From Prochlorococcus sp. AG-409-F19 (GTDB lineage Bacteria; Cyanobacteriota; Cyanobacteriia; PCC-6307; Cyanobiaceae): a DNA stretch of 64,000 bases. A model generated the notes under the pieces. The model saw nothing but the letters and a program-made list of their open reading frames with translations, had not been told where the DNA came from and did not search any database. The position numbers and the translations under genes are program-made. Below are positions 3,360 to 10,123 of the stretch, in pieces. Positions within the stretch are counted from its first letter, which is position 1. Each line of letters begins with the position of its first letter. The stretch is from assembly GCA_003215795.1 (NCBI GenBank), contig QCJV01000003.1, forward strand, positions 46,473 through 110,472. Reading direction: 5' to 3'.

Positions 3360-4784
3360 ATGGCTAATTTTGAAAAGCTTTGCCCCCCCAAGAAAGGCGA
3401 AACAATTAGATTTGAAAATGGATTGCCATTAGTTCCTGATAACCCAATTATTCCCTTTATACGAGGAGATGGAACAGGAGTAGATATTTGGCCAGCAACA
3501 CAAAAAGTAATTGATAAGGCAGTCCAAAAAGCCTATGGAAGTTCACGAAAAATTGAATGGTTCAAAATCTTTGCAGGTGATGAGGCGTGTGATGTTTATG
3601 GAACTTATCAATATCTTCCTAATGACACCATAGAAGCAATCAAAGAATATGGTGTTGCAATTAAAGGACCATTGACCACCCCCGTTGGTGGAGGAATTAG
3701 ATCTTTAAATGTTGCATTAAGACAAATCTTTGATCTATATAGTTGTGTCCGCCCATGTCGTTATTACAAAGGGACTCCCAGTCCACATAAACATCCTGAA
3801 GACTTAGATGTAATTGTTTATCGCGAAAATACTGAAGATATTTATGTTGGCATCGAATGGGAAGCAAATGATCCAATTGGGCGAAGCCTAATTGAGCATC
3901 TAAATAATAAAGTAATCCCATCTAGTGAATCAATTAAGAATAGAAAGATACCAAAAGGGTCAGGAATTGGGATCAAGCCAGTAAGCAAGACAGGCAGCCA
4001 AAGACATATCCGTAAAGCAATTCAACATGCATTAAAGCTTGAAGGAACAAAAAGGCATGTAACTCTTGTTCATAAAGGAAATATCATGAAATTTACAGAA
4101 GGTGCATTCCGTGACTGGGGATATGAATTAGCAACAACTGAATTCCGTGATTCTTGCATTACGGAAAGGGAAAGTTGGATTATCTCCAACCTTGAAAAAG
4201 ATCCTGAACTAAACATAGAAAATAATGCAAAAAAGATAGATCCTGGATATTCATCTTTAACCCAAGAAAAGAAAGATGTTATATGCAACGAAGTGCAGTC
4301 AGTAATTAATAATATTTATAAAACACATGGGAATGAAAAATGGAAGAAAATGGTTTTAGTAGATGACAGAATAGCAGATAGTATTTTTCAACAAATTCAA
4401 ACAAGGCCTCAGGAATATTCCATACTTGCGACACTAAACCTTAATGGTGATTATATTTCAGATGCTGCTGCTGCTATAGTTGGTGGATTAGGAATGGCCC
4501 CAGGTGCAAATATTGGCGATAATGCTGCCATATTTGAAGCAACACATGGCACAGCACCAAAACATGCTGGTCTAGACAAAATTAATCCAGGTTCAGTTAT
4601 TCTTAGCGGAGTTATGATGCTTGAATTTCTAGGTTGGGAAGAAGCTGCAAATCTAATTACAAAAGGTTTAAGTCAATCTATTTCTGACAAAAAAGTTACT
4701 TATGACCTTGCAAGACTTATGGATCCAAAACAGTCACCATTGTCTTGTAGTCAATTTGCTGAGGCTGTCATTGAAAGATTCTAA
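3360..4784 (+). CDS. icd: NADP-dependent isocitrate dehydrogenase
   Basis: IPFIRGDGTGVDIWPA, VYRENTEDIYVGIEW, ATHGTAPKHAGLDKINPGSVILSG; full-length 474 aa. Confidence 0.97.
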   Translation: MANFEKLCPPKKGETIRFENGLPLVPDNPIIPFIRGDGTGVDIWPATQKVIDKAVQKAYGSSRKIEWFKIFAGDEACDVYGTYQYLPNDTIEAIKEYGVAIKGPLTTPVGGGIRSLNVALRQIFDLYSCVRPCRYYKGTPSPHKHPEDLDVIVYRENTEDIYVGIEWEANDPIGRSLIEHLNNKVIPSSESIKNRKIPKGSGIGIKPVSKTGSQRHIRKAIQHALKLEGTKRHVTLVHKGNIMKFTEGAFRDWGYELATTEFRDSCITERESWIISNLEKDPELNIENNAKKIDPGYSSLTQEKKDVICNEVQSVINNIYKTHGNEKWKKMVLVDDRIADSIFQQIQTRPQEYSILATLNLNGDYISDAAAAIVGGLGMAPGANIGDNAAIFEATHGTAPKHAGLDKINPGSVILSGVMMLEFLGWEEAANLITKGLSQSISDKKVTYDLARLMDPKQSPLSCSQFAEAVIERF

Positions 4785-4805
4785 ATGTTTTTAATTTCTT
4801 TAATT

Positions 4806-6158
4806 TTAAACAGATTCCATAAGTGTAAACGCTTTTAAAAGAGTTGTTTTGTCTCCTAAGTTACCTGGAAAGGTAATGATAGGCAGTTTTTCCTTATCTT
4901 TTTCAGAAGTGCATACAACAGATAAGCCAGGAAGAATTTGTCCATGTAGATAAACAGATTGAAGTCTTAAACCCTTAGATATTAAATAATGAGTTGTAAT
5001 GCCTCCTTTGCTAATGATATATCCCAAACTACTAGAGATTTTATCAACCAAGCGGCCCATTAGTGCCGCAAGAAAAACACCAAATCCAAGCCTTTCTTTC
5101 ATAGAAGAGAAGAGAATTTCACCTCTACTTGTAAATAAAACTGGTGTCATTTTCTTATCAAGAATGCCTAACAACTCTTGATTCCACAAATTTTCTAAAT
5201 CTGCAATTAAACGATCTTGTTCACTACTCTGAAAAATTCTAGAGATTTTCTTTACAGGTAATTTAATTCCTATACATGTAGGGTGTTCCAATAATAGTTC
5301 TAATTGTTTATCTGCTAATTTGACATGAGATCCAACAATAACAATTCCTGGCTTTACGCTACCATTTTTATCTCTGAGCCTAAGATTAGAGAAATTTTTA
5401 ATAGTATTCTTCTCAGGATAGATCTTTGATAAAGAATTAATTAAACTTGCTGCTGATCGAAAAAGAAATTTCTTGCTCGTACCTAAAGCTTCGATTGCAG
5501 ATACAAATGTATCAAGATCTATTGAAGATTGAGCATCAACAATAACGGTTTGATTCGATGATAACTTTAACAATAAGTCAGTTAATCTTTTCATTCCTAA
5601 CTTATATTTATTTGCCTCTCTTAATTGCTTAATATTAATACAAATTACATCTTTTGATTTTATTTTAAAATTACTTTTTTCTTCTAAATATGTAGCCAAG
5701 TTACTTGATGAGAATCCAAAAATTTTATCTTCTCCAAAAATAGTCTTATGCACAGGAATACTATTTAATAAATGAATGCCGTTAACTGTAGTCCTACCTC
5801 CTTCAAAAAATGCTGGGACATGGAAAGTTGCATCAAAAGGTCCTAGTTCTTCATTTATTACTTTTGGCTCTAGAGTCGAATGACCTCTTAATGTTGAATC
5901 CCCCCGACTAACAAAAAGAATTTGATTAAGCCTTAAATCATTTTCTTTCAATACTTCCTTGAGATTTTCACAAACTTCACGAAGTCTGTACTCAGCATTT
6001 TCAGGAGATAAAGATCTAGTATTTGTTAGCAAAAAAAGTAATGGTGACGAATCTTTGATCCACTTAGTCAAAATTTCTTTATTCCACTGAAATAGTAAGG
6101 GGCACCCATAAACAGTTTGAGAGCCAGTCGGATCATCATCAAAAACAACAATCTTCAT
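4806..6158 (-). CDS. DUF1537 / four-carbon acid sugar kinase family protein (OtnK/DenK-like)
   Basis: N-terminal MKIVVFDDDPTGSQT and SRGDSTLRGH motifs of the four-carbon acid sugar kinase family; C-terminal KGGITTH nucleotide-binding motif. Confidence 0.8.
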   Translation of the reverse strand: MKIVVFDDDPTGSQTVYGCPLLFQWNKEILTKWIKDSSPLLFLLTNTRSLSPENAEYRLREVCENLKEVLKENDLRLNQILFVSRGDSTLRGHSTLEPKVINEELGPFDATFHVPAFFEGGRTTVNGIHLLNSIPVHKTIFGEDKIFGFSSSNLATYLEEKSNFKIKSKDVICINIKQLREANKYKLGMKRLTDLLLKLSSNQTVIVDAQSSIDLDTFVSAIEALGTSKKFLFRSAASLINSLSKIYPEKNTIKNFSNLRLRDKNGSVKPGIVIVGSHVKLADKQLELLLEHPTCIGIKLPVKKISRIFQSSEQDRLIADLENLWNQELLGILDKKMTPVLFTSRGEILFSSMKERLGFGVFLAALMGRLVDKISSSLGYIISKGGITTHYLISKGLRLQSVYLHGQILPGLSVVCTSEKDKEKLPIITFPGNLGDKTTLLKAFTLMESV

Positions 6159-6165
6159 AAAAAAG

Positions 6166-7338
6166 CTATTTCCAGCTATCGGGAATAGTTACATAAGACT
6201 GATCTAAATCCTCCACTGATTTGCAACCTAATAATTTCATGGTCCTTAGAACATCAGCTTTAATAATCTCAATTGCTCTAGCAACACCAGGTCCACCAGC
6301 TGCTGCCAATCCATAAGCATATGCCCTACCGATTAAAACAGCTTTAGCTCCAAGACATAAAGCTTTCACAACATCTCCTCCACGTCTTATTCCACCATCT
6401 AACAAAACATCTATCTGGCCATTCACTGCATCGACAACTTCAGGTAAAACTCGAATAGTTGGAGCAACGCTATCTAATTGACGAGCTCCATGATTCGATA
6501 CAACAATCGCATCCACTCCTTCATCAACAGCTTTTCGTGCATCATCTCCTATATGAACTCCTTTAACTACAATATCTCCCCCCCATGCTTCTCTAATCCA
6601 TTTAAGATCTTCCCATGTAACTACTGATGCCTCTAATGCAGGTCCAATTTCTGTGTAACCCATTGGACCATCATCAAGCTCAACATTAGGGAAACTCATT
6701 AATCCTCCATCGAGCAACCAATCAGTCATCCAACAAGGCTTTACAAGAATTTGAGCAAGGTAAGGGAACATCTTGATTGGATTCCTGGAAAGTAATTCTT
6801 TTGTCCCATTTCGCAAATCACGTTCTCTCAAACCTGAAACAGGGGTATCAATCGTGACGACTATTGCAGAGAAACCTGCTTTCTTGGCCCTATCAATAGT
6901 TTTCAATGCAACATCTCTTCCACCAAGTAAATAAAGCTGATACCAAGCAGGGGAAGTTGTCGCTTGCTTAACTTCTTCCAATCTACATCCAGATAAAGTC
7001 GAGAGTGTATAACCAGTACCTGCAATCCCAGCCTCACGTGCTGCAACAATTTCCCCCTTAGGAAAGAACAAGCGGCTACTACCTACTGGAGCAAGCATGA
7101 AAGGGAGTTGAAACTCTTGATTGAGAACCGAAGTCTTTAAATTGCAAGCGGGAGTAGCAACTGCACATCTTGGACGAAACAATATTTCGTTAAAGGCAGT
7201 ACAATTCTGAGATAAGGTTTGCTCTCTATCAGCACCACTGTCGATATAATCAAAAACCATTCGAGGAACACGCTTTTGTGCCAAACAGCGAAGATCACTG
7301 ATATTTACAACTGAAGGAGCCGAAACATTAGCTTGCAT
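6166..7338 (-). CDS. FMN-dependent alpha-hydroxyacid oxidase/dehydrogenase (LldD / glycolate oxidase family)
   Basis: VPRMVFDYIDSGADREQTL, LAPVGSSRLFFPKGE, VVSNHGARQLDSV, LLDGGIRRGGDVVKALCLGAKAVLIGR. Confidence 0.92.
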   Translation of the reverse strand: MQANVSAPSVVNISDLRCLAQKRVPRMVFDYIDSGADREQTLSQNCTAFNEILFRPRCAVATPACNLKTSVLNQEFQLPFMLAPVGSSRLFFPKGEIVAAREAGIAGTGYTLSTLSGCRLEEVKQATTSPAWYQLYLLGGRDVALKTIDRAKKAGFSAIVVTIDTPVSGLRERDLRNGTKELLSRNPIKMFPYLAQILVKPCWMTDWLLDGGLMSFPNVELDDGPMGYTEIGPALEASVVTWEDLKWIREAWGGDIVVKGVHIGDDARKAVDEGVDAIVVSNHGARQLDSVAPTIRVLPEVVDAVNGQIDVLLDGGIRRGGDVVKALCLGAKAVLIGRAYAYGLAAAGGPGVARAIEIIKADVLRTMKLLGCKSVEDLDQSYVTIPDSWK

Positions 7339-7457
7339 ATCGCACAGGGATTATTATCTAATCAAACATACTAAGATATTAAATGCCTAGAAAATTGGCA
7401 GAAAAGAACTTATTATGTATTGAAAATCAGAATTTCTTTACATACAGAGTTCTATCA

Positions 7458-9185
7458 TTATTCATAATTTTTCCGCTTAGATGTTTTACCTATACCTGAA
7501 TTAAATGTATTAGTTGGGTCCAGTTCTCGATAAAAATTTTTAAGGCTGTTATCAGCTTCATATAGGTGACCAACATTATGTTCAGCTGGGTATTTAGCTT
7601 TATTTCTATCTAAGATATATAAGATTTTATTTTTAAGTTTATCAACATCAATTCCTTCTTTAGCAACAAAATCCCAATGGAAAACCATACATAGGAAATG
7701 TCCCATTTGATAAGACTGGGCCATTTGAGAAAGTATTTCTGCGGGCAGTAGTTTATACCAAGAATCACAATTTCGCGGCAATGCCACATCTAAAGGGATA
7801 ATATTAGCAGAATTATATGAATGAAGTTTCCTATACCTACTTGGAGCAGAGCCTGCTACATAGCGATGTAAAAGTGCATCTTTACCTTCCAGGCTAGTAC
7901 ATTTTATATATTCATAATCTGTTTCGATTTTAGTTTCTTCATCCAACAGGTTATCCATTAGTTGAATGGTTGAATCAGATGCTAGAAACAACATGCAATG
8001 TTCAAATCTGTTGTTATATTGGCGTAAAATCGAAGGCAGATGATCAGGTAAAATAGACGATAAAAACTGCATAATATTGTCAGTTAAGTTACTTGGCAAG
8101 AAGTCATAGTCATCTATAAATTCATCAATTATCCTTTTAAAATAAAATATTCTTGGTAATGATTTTGTACCAAAATATTTAATTAGAATAAAAAGGTCCT
8201 TACAATATTTGTCTGAAGCATCAAAGTAACTTCTATGCATATACTCACCCATATCAGGTAAAGTTGGCATCTCAGTAAGAATCCTCTCTCTTAATTTTGT
8301 TAAATGATCTGGATTATTTGTTCCCACAAAGAAAACTTGTTCTCTTTCTGGCAGAGGAAAAGTATCGAGCCTAACAGCAAAAACAGCAATCTTTCCAGCG
8401 CATCCACTAGATTCGTATAATCGCCTTTGATCAGAATTAAATCTGGCAGGAGAGCTTGCAGTAATGTCACGTACTCGATTCTTATAATCCTTATCCGATG
8501 CTGCTTTAAGTGAAGAAGAAAGACCTTCTGTATTAAAATTAATGTTTTGGATATTTGTTAAAATTTCATCAACAGTGTCACCTAGTTCAATTCCTAAATG
8601 ATTAATTAGTTCTAATCGTCCATCTCGGTTTAATCGTGCAAAAAGTGATAATTCTGTATAGGCAGGACCACGATTAACTAAATTACCACCAGAGTTATTG
8701 CAAACACCACCAATCACTGAAGCACCTATGCAAGATGAACCAATAACAGAATGGGGTCCTCTACCCAAAGGTAAAAGATTGTCTTCTAATTGATATAAAG
8801 TAGTCCCAGGGAATGCAATGACTTGCTGACCTTTGTTAACCAAAATTAATTGATTAATTTTAAGTGTACTTATAATAATTACATCTCTATCGTAATCATC
8901 TCCAAATGGTGTAGAGCCACCTGTCAAGCCTGTATTTGCAGCCTGTAAAATTATAATTTGGTCAAAAGATATGGAAATTTCTAAGATTTTCCAAAGATGC
9001 AGCAAATTCTGAGGAAATAAAACAAAAGATGCCTGACCATTACCAACTCTTATGCCAGTGCTATAAAAAAGAGTCTTTTTAGGATCAGTTAATACATTTT
9101 TCCTCCCAAGAACAGCAATCAATTCTTGCTTGAGTTCTAAGATCCGATCTCCCCTCATCTTACAAATCCTAATACTCCTAAACAA
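7458..9185 (-). CDS. dld: FAD-binding quinone-dependent D-lactate dehydrogenase, E. coli Dld type
   Basis: IILQAANTGLTGGSTPFGDDYDRDVIIISTLKI, PHSVIGSSCIGASVIGGVCNNSGGNLVNRGPAYTELSLFARLN, KYPAEHNVGHLYEAD..FYRELDPTNTFNSGIGKTSKRKNYE closely resemble E. coli Dld as I remember it. Confidence 0.9.
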   Translation of the reverse strand: MFRSIRICKMRGDRILELKQELIAVLGRKNVLTDPKKTLFYSTGIRVGNGQASFVLFPQNLLHLWKILEISISFDQIIILQAANTGLTGGSTPFGDDYDRDVIIISTLKINQLILVNKGQQVIAFPGTTLYQLEDNLLPLGRGPHSVIGSSCIGASVIGGVCNNSGGNLVNRGPAYTELSLFARLNRDGRLELINHLGIELGDTVDEILTNIQNINFNTEGLSSSLKAASDKDYKNRVRDITASSPARFNSDQRRLYESSGCAGKIAVFAVRLDTFPLPEREQVFFVGTNNPDHLTKLRERILTEMPTLPDMGEYMHRSYFDASDKYCKDLFILIKYFGTKSLPRIFYFKRIIDEFIDDYDFLPSNLTDNIMQFLSSILPDHLPSILRQYNNRFEHCMLFLASDSTIQLMDNLLDEETKIETDYEYIKCTSLEGKDALLHRYVAGSAPSRYRKLHSYNSANIIPLDVALPRNCDSWYKLLPAEILSQMAQSYQMGHFLCMVFHWDFVAKEGIDVDKLKNKILYILDRNKAKYPAEHNVGHLYEADNSLKNFYRELDPTNTFNSGIGKTSKRKNYE

Positions 9186-9259: not shown

Positions 9260-10123
9260 TTAAGCAAATTGATTCACTATAAACTCGCACTTTAGATGCT
9301 TTGCTTCGTCTGGCTTAAGCTCAATAGTACGGTCACCAGTAATCAAAGAGTTCCTGGGACTTGTCCATGGTTCCAAGCAAACCATTGGCCTGGGTGGTTC
9401 AGTCCAAATCACACTTAAGTCAAGAGGTTCTTCAGATTTCATTTCCAAAGAGGTATGATCTATTAAATCAAATAAAAATGTTGAAGAAGTAGTCCCTGCA
9501 ATGAAATCAACACCCTTGCTAAGTCTTTCTAACTCTAAATTAGTCTCCGACTTTATCATCGTCTTCTGATTTATACATTCCTTAGTAAGACCATCAATTC
9601 GGACATGATTTAAATCTTTAATGGAAAAATAAGGATGCAAGCCAAAGCTAAAAGGCATTAAATTTTTACTATTATTTATTACTACTGTCAGAATCTCTAA
9701 CGATTGAGTCCTCAATCTTATTTCCATCTGCAAGGTAAACTCAAATGGGTAAGCCCTTAAAGTTACTTGAGTTTGTTTTAATCGAAGTTTTACACCAGAC
9801 TGATCATTAAGAACATTCAATTCCCACAAGGCATTTCTAGCAAAACCATGCTGTTCTAAAAAATATTCATTATCACCTAAAGTATATCTACCATCTCGCA
9901 AGTTTCCACAAATAGGAAAAAGAACTGGTATACCTCCTCGAACACTCTTCAAAGGATCCATAAATCGTAATTGGTCAAGATATAAAATCTCTCTACCATT
10001 ACATACCCAACTAGTTATTAATCCCCCACGTTCAGGAACAATTCGCAAGTAATCTCCACTTTCTAAACTTCTACATTCCCAATGTTTATAAGGAAAATCT
10101 TTGCTTGCAAGAGTAACTGACAT
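9260..10123 (-). CDS. Aldose 1-epimerase-like / glucose-6-phosphate 1-epimerase-like protein
   Basis: RGGIPVLFPICGNL, YFLEQHGFARNALWEL, FGLHPYFSI, CLEPWTSPRNSL are mutarotase-like (YeaD family) motifs. Confidence 0.82.
   Translation of the reverse strand: MSVTLASKDFPYKHWECRSLESGDYLRIVPERGGLITSWVCNGREILYLDQLRFMDPLKSVRGGIPVLFPICGNLRDGRYTLGDNEYFLEQHGFARNALWELNVLNDQSGVKLRLKQTQVTLRAYPFEFTLQMEIRLRTQSLEILTVVINNSKNLMPFSFGLHPYFSIKDLNHVRIDGLTKECINQKTMIKSETNLELERLSKGVDFIAGTTSSTFLFDLIDHTSLEMKSEEPLDLSVIWTEPPRPMVCLEPWTSPRNSLITGDRTIELKPDEAKHLKCEFIVNQFA

Follow-up and report, generated by a model that had tools for sequence, protein, structure and literature searches.

Three co-directional genes on the minus strand of a 64,000-nucleotide stretch from Prochlorococcus sp. 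AG-409-F19 (contig QCJV01000003.1, positions 46,473 to 110,472; hereafter the window, in whose own numbering coordinates are given) encode a DUF1537-family kinase, an FMN-dependent alpha-hydroxyacid dehydrogenase (OX) and an E. coli-type quinone-linked D-lactate dehydrogenase (Dld). They were described in an earlier note made from the sequence alone, and all three are present as open reading frames (ORFs) with family matches. These matches, and the conserved gene order around them, are far beyond chance. Our main concern is OX, which occupies a position held in related genomes by glcE, part of the three-subunit GlcDEF system of glycolate oxidation. The source genome, at 0.91 Mb, is of the low-light type and 54% complete, and the absence of a gene from it alone means little. 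The genes and gaps of the locus are as follows, with protein lengths in amino acids (aa).

4806 to 6158, minus strand: DUF1537-family kinase (SBD_N and NBD_C domains, PF07005/PF17042), 450 aa; ancestral cyanobacterial core gene
6166 to 7338, minus strand: FMN-dependent alpha-hydroxyacid dehydrogenase (OX, PF01070), 390 aa; occupies the glcE slot of relatives
7458 to 9185, minus strand: E. coli-type quinone-linked D-lactate dehydrogenase (Dld), 575 aa from a TTG start; PRK11183 equivalog, above cut-off
6159 to 6165: 7-bp gap from the oxidase stop to the kinase start; the corresponding distance is short in 34/34 OX genomes
7339 to 7457: 119-bp gap between Dld and OX, with room for a separate promoter
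4785 to 4805: 21-bp gap between the kinase and icd, the slot of glcF in many GlcDEF-bearing relatives
3360 to 4784, plus strand: icd, NADP isocitrate dehydrogenase; conserved flank that served as a synteny anchor
9260 to 10123, minus strand: aldose-1-epimerase-family protein; conserved flank on the opposite side

Each of the 34 genomes with OX has it immediately upstream of the kinase, at gaps of 10–58 bp (measured between match ends, stop codons included). The earlier note had put the gap in the window at 8 bp; it is 7 bp. Such spacing permits co-transcription of OX and the kinase, while the 119 bp between Dld and OX is ambiguous. A promoter and terminator scan of the locus gave nothing better than chance.

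The glcE position and its occupants

Among the 151 Cyanobiaceae genomes compared, OX was called (full-length match, E below 1e-100) in 34. The surrounding order is conserved as nhaS, alpha/beta hydrolase, aldose epimerase, X, kinase, Y, icd, where the content of X and Y varies. In genomes without OX (e.g. L090–L092) X is normally glcE, divergent from the kinase, and Y is often glcF, convergent and beside icd in L090 and L091. The X product in these genomes is a FAD protein of ~400 aa, encoded on the opposite strand with its start ~14 bp from the kinase start in L090, and its best NCBIfam match is GlcE. Where Y stands next to the kinase it encodes an iron-sulfur protein of ~450 aa with GlcF as its best NCBIfam match. 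Both score below the curated GlcE and GlcF cut-offs, and no other family scores higher. In OX genomes the X position holds OX, alone or with Dld, on the kinase strand, and Y is empty. High-light-type genomes (g17: L100 and L101, so labelled by their genome size and branch rather than from a name) have neither OX nor glcE/glcF, leaving the epimerase, kinase and icd adjacent.

The two systems also exclude each other genome by genome. Strong matches to glcE, glcF and glcD were found in 102, 100 and 99 genomes respectively, with at least one of them in 107. These 107 all fall among the 117 genomes without OX, against 0/34 with it, and no genome seen holds both systems. Ten hold neither, namely five high-light-type genomes, G025 (95% complete) and four others that are 64–82% complete. 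In a tree built from icd and NhaS, a single Prochlorococcus clade (100/100) takes in all OX genomes as well as three with GlcDEF and the two of the high-light type, which fits one or two putative swap events followed by loss. OX therefore stands in place of GlcDEF in genomes without GlcDEF by two lines of evidence, exclusion and a shared locus, which between them represent one or two events only. G025 (locus L108), on a long branch, lost GlcDEF and did not acquire OX, apparently as an event separate from that in high-light Prochlorococcus.

OX and the GlcDEF of cyanobacteria and E. coli are linked by the chromosomal slot that OX shares with glcE/glcF, and probably also by the reaction (2-hydroxyacid to 2-oxoacid) and by the delivery of electrons on the quinone side. 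They differ in construction: OX is a single FMN protein with the FMN_dh fold, whereas GlcD and GlcE are FAD proteins and GlcF carries iron-sulfur domains.

OX among the FMN-dependent hydroxyacid enzymes

OX belongs to the FMN-dependent alpha-hydroxyacid superfamily (FMN_dh PF01070, E 2e-123). The catalytic residues Tyr24, Tyr129, Asp157, Arg164, Lys230, His254 and Arg257 (numbered as in spinach glycolate oxidase, GOX) are all kept in the window protein and in 29 relatives aligned with it, and are common to the plant and animal peroxisomal glycolate oxidases (GOX, HAO1). OX differs from the latter in lacking Trp108, in having a LldD-type loop ~20 residues longer, and in falling outside the clade of spinach GOX and the Nostoc-type L-lactate oxidase (No-LOX). 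No-LOX, itself a cyanobacterial FMN_dh protein, has Leu at position 112 as OX does, but its loop is of the short soluble type and it forms a separate clade (98/98 support) beside plant GOX; full-length matches in the phylum sample come from other families, mainly a single one (f7).

OX also resembles LldD, the proteobacterial quinone-linked L-lactate dehydrogenase. The stretch from the active-site Asp/Arg to the Lys is 100 residues long in OX and contains a 'KP.W' motif; LldD has 99 residues there, and soluble GOX and No-LOX have 78–79. OX thus has the long membrane-type loop of LldD, along with the Pro-x-Trp loop motif and a Val at the Thr78 position. It is nevertheless only 41% identical to LldD and scores below both of its profiles (327.5 bits against a PRK11197 cut-off of 376; 291 against an NF033901 cut-off of 550). 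In LldD and mandelate dehydrogenase the long loop accompanies attachment to the membrane and the use of quinone as acceptor. OX is probably quinone-linked and free of iron-sulfur clusters. A dehydrogenase also fits better than an H2O2-forming oxidase because catalase has been lost in Prochlorococcus (PMC12094017).

Two other identities for OX were considered and rejected. Inheritance within cyanobacteria as a Nostoc-type L-lactate oxidase is ruled out by the tree and the loop length, and the pre-mycofactocin synthase MftD by a score of 312 bits against a TIGR03966 cut-off of 471. One contig scan for OX relatives across phyla returned only Prochlorococcus single-cell genomes (e.g. AG-402-G10) and one chance match, with no donor lineage among them.

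The D-lactate dehydrogenase

Dld is a full-length, equivalog-level match to the E. coli enzyme (PRK11183, 814 bits against a cut-off of 391; Lact-deh-memb PF09330, E 2e-111, over positions 1–290 of 290). The blocks of E. coli Dld that the earlier note had pointed out are real, as the protein matches PDB 1f0x over residues 20–574 and is 51% identical to E. coli Dld. The length of 575 aa given there holds for the ORF from TTG; the start is probably the ATG at window position 9158, giving 566 aa, the length of most relatives. In-frame stops reported in some matches raised the possibility of broken Dld genes, which was rejected on finding full ORFs of 565–566 aa.

Dld was found in 26/151 genomes, and 25 of the 26 carriers also have OX. 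Across the 34 OX genomes it lies directly upstream of OX in 20, at 111–141 bp (between match ends), at another site in four (G033, G039, G078 and G104), and is absent from nine; in G109 it is possibly split by a contig end. The phylogeny that the earlier note had suggested for Dld was run against four proteobacterial sequences, from which the cyanobacterial copies stand apart as one clade (100/100). The likely course is that the gene was acquired once and then passed on mostly vertically, on a thin sampling of donors. The copies of the four genomes with Dld elsewhere (L053–L056, in G104, G078, G033 and G039) are diverged, at 54–56% identity, and form a clade of their own, and the locus in those genomes is without Dld. 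The only Dld carrier without OX (L051, G120:C3:54765-56462) has a Prochlorococcus-clade Dld at an unrelated site and intact glcD/E/F.

Glycolate or lactate as substrate

The explanation that we favour, with a probability of roughly 0.55, is that OX replaced GlcDEF and has glycolate as a main substrate. The ancestral three-subunit GlcDEF would have been lost in most of the non-high-light Prochlorococcus sampled, with a single FMN dehydrogenase settling in the vacated glcE position beside the old kinase gene. OX would most likely convert glycolate to glyoxylate, and probably also L-lactate to pyruvate, with its electrons passing to the quinone pool rather than to O2, and the photorespiratory step would have been taken over without iron-sulfur clusters. 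Dld, usually encoded just upstream, would convert D-lactate to pyruvate on the same quinone pool. GlcDEF-type enzymes also oxidise D-lactate, and Dld may restore the D-lactate activity lost with GlcDEF. More tentatively, and short of an even chance, we suggest that in much of Prochlorococcus photorespiratory glycolate is oxidised by a single-subunit, iron-sulfur-free, quinone-linked FMN dehydrogenase without the residues of plant-type GOX, as a transitional stage from ancestral GlcDEF towards the high-light clades, where the step is lost altogether, and with Dld restoring D-lactate activity.

Several observations weigh against glycolate and against a simple swap. At No-LOX positions 82, 112 and 212, plant-type glycolate oxidases have Thr, Trp and Val, and lactate oxidases Met, Leu or Val, and Phe (PMC7020209). 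OX has Val and Leu at the first two, both invariant in 30 sequences, and Ile at the third, where the alignment is uncertain. It accordingly lacks the GOX set (Thr78, Trp108, Val), with Leu at the Trp108 position. The identity of OX to named relatives reaches only ~41%, and the family tree places it weakly. glcF is not adjacent to the kinase in every GlcDEF genome, and the Fisher p of 3e-25 for the exclusion ignores descent and overstates the evidence, as the 34 genomes are not independent. Finally, a GlcD-like FAD protein of weak similarity occurs in nearly all genomes, including high-light ones. It may be the GlcD2 of PMC9723591, which leaves open whether GlcD2 oxidises glycolate alone. On balance, the position of the locus and the exclusion favour glycolate, while the residues favour L-lactate or a dual activity, making L-lactate the main rival substrate.

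That rival can be taken further, with OX and Dld as the L- and D-lactate dehydrogenases of the cell, acting on lactate from methylglyoxal detoxification, fermentation or uptake; the loss of GlcDEF would then be streamlining, and glycolate would be excreted or handled by the GlcD2-like protein. The Val/Leu gate residues of OX resemble LldD and lactate oxidases rather than GOX, its loop is LldD-like, and Dld is a true D-lactate dehydrogenase equivalog. Clusters of an FMN L-lactate dehydrogenase and a D-lactate dehydrogenase in a few marine picocyanobacteria, which may or may not be the same families, have been annotated as such in print and read as lactate fermentation (PMC9361551), dld is known in SS120 and MIT9211 and is induced by glucose in SS120 (PMC2565063), and high-light strains dropped GlcDEF with no substitute. 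Against this, it would have to be coincidence that OX stands in the glcE position and is never found with GlcDEF. In addition, nine OX genomes retain OX without Dld, OX falls below the LldD cut-offs, and no LldP-type lactate/glycolate permease was found in the 26 genomes searched, 20 of them with OX. We consider this reading the less likely of the two.

The DUF1537 kinase

Both domains of the kinase match at full length (PF07005, E 5e-46; PF17042, E 4e-22), placing it in the DUF1537 kinase superfamily. It occurs in 140/151 Cyanobiaceae genomes (92/94 of the high-quality ones), and the kinase domain in 142/156 genomes across the cyanobacterial phylum. In the best 30 of the phylum loci, nearly all from outside Cyanobiaceae, kinase matches are mostly 39–45% identical over nearly the whole length. 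The kinase motifs DDDPTGSQTV, SR.DSTLRGH, PAF.EGGR and SKGG are invariant or nearly so. Because it is near-universal, against 34 genomes for OX and 26 for Dld, the kinase does not belong to an accessory module. It is a pan-cyanobacterial gene that predates the proposed swap, need not share a pathway with OX and probably serves another process. The closest relatives of solved structure are DUF1537 proteins deposited with no function assigned. No glcE/glcF lies beside it in 15 genomes from outside Cyanobiaceae, and there is no conserved partner there except minC/minD-like neighbours in 4/15. In a 2.8-Mb genome of another cyanobacterial family, which has a 4.8-Mb congener, the kinase is reduced to two short adjacent fragments of ~70 aa (G292:C1:574229-574614), apparently a pseudogene.

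The window kinase shares both Pfam domains and the motifs with the four-carbon acid sugar kinases DtnK, OtnK and DenK, and it matches PDB 4xfm by profile at E 3e-16. The label 'OtnK-type' of the earlier note was nevertheless too specific, since the scores lie far below the NCBIfam equivalog cut-offs (67 bits against 450 for DtnK; 25 against 350 for OtnK), no pathway partners were found, and the gene is core rather than accessory and catabolic. A role as the photorespiratory glycerate kinase was set aside as unnecessary. One GlcDEF genome has a canonical glycerate kinase (GLYK-like, PDB 7xpc, E 4e-10), and five inspected Cyanobiaceae genomes encode plant-type D-glycerate 3-kinase (GLYK)-like proteins of 314–356 aa (L196–L200), including the OX genome G039 and the high-light-type G117. 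With such proteins encoded, the later photorespiratory steps are plausible and do not require the DUF1537 kinase.

A rather improbable alternative is that the kinase supplies or repairs a phosphorylated C4 precursor of vitamin B6 (e.g. 4-hydroxythreonine to its 4-phosphate), with OX and Dld as unrelated neighbours. Cyanobacteria all have PdxA/PdxJ and lack PdxB/PdxR and Epd, a gap that is unfilled (PMC9997740) and that the kinase would close at the Epd/PdxB steps; 4-hydroxythreonine kinase activity is known in the DUF1537 family (PMC7954711). The near-universal occurrence of the gene, the lack of conserved catabolic neighbours in the 15 genomes and the cover of glycerate by a GLYK-like protein all suit such a role, but no neighbourhood link to pdx genes was seen. 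The proposal bears on the kinase alone and does not conflict with the proposed replacement of GlcDEF by OX.

Least probable by far is the module proposed in the earlier note, in which kinase, oxidase and Dld scavenge C3/C4 hydroxyacids and the oxidase serves as the tetronate dehydrogenase upstream of an OtnK-like kinase: the short-gap adjacency of oxidase and kinase in 34/34 genomes and the known phosphorylation of C4 acids by DUF1537 enzymes speak for it, but the kinase is a core gene present in 106 genomes without the oxidase, it adjoins OX because it already adjoined glcE/glcF, the slot of OX is that of glcE and not of a tetronate dehydrogenase, and the kinase scores are as low as given above. 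Scavenging or import is further weakened because, besides the missing LldP-family permease, a class II aldolase (OtnC family PF00596) was absent from 9/9 near-complete OX genomes searched, a sample that does not include the source genome. The observation of a hydroxyacid-oxidising locus is confirmed and the interpretation partly supported, in that OX does adjoin the kinase throughout; the co-occurrence of all three genes fails, and the pathway is largely superseded by a better-supported one.

Relation to published work

We found no published account of the positional replacement or of the OX/GlcDEF exclusion in the open-licence literature, although there are partial hints (PMC9723591; PMC2565063). 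The former lists GOX/LOX candidates in MIT9211 and NATL2A and the absence of glcE/glcF in MIT9312 (PMC9723591). The swap, if correct, questions the current 'lactate fermentation' view of OX/Dld-type genes. Photorespiratory glycolate is a large carbon flux from phytoplankton to heterotrophs, and which Prochlorococcus lineages re-oxidise it internally, and at what iron cost, bears on leakage. The clean split of lineages at one conserved locus (GlcDEF, FMN enzyme, nothing) allows the question to be put straight to cultured strains. The comparison also singles out a core cyanobacterial DUF1537 kinase, for which the gap in vitamin B6 synthesis makes a B6-related role worth testing.

On the far side of icd, as in many relatives, the window encodes a heme oxygenase followed by PebA- and PebB-type bilin reductases (580-2878). 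The PebA- and PebB-type ORFs, both listed from TTG starts, overlap by 11 bp.

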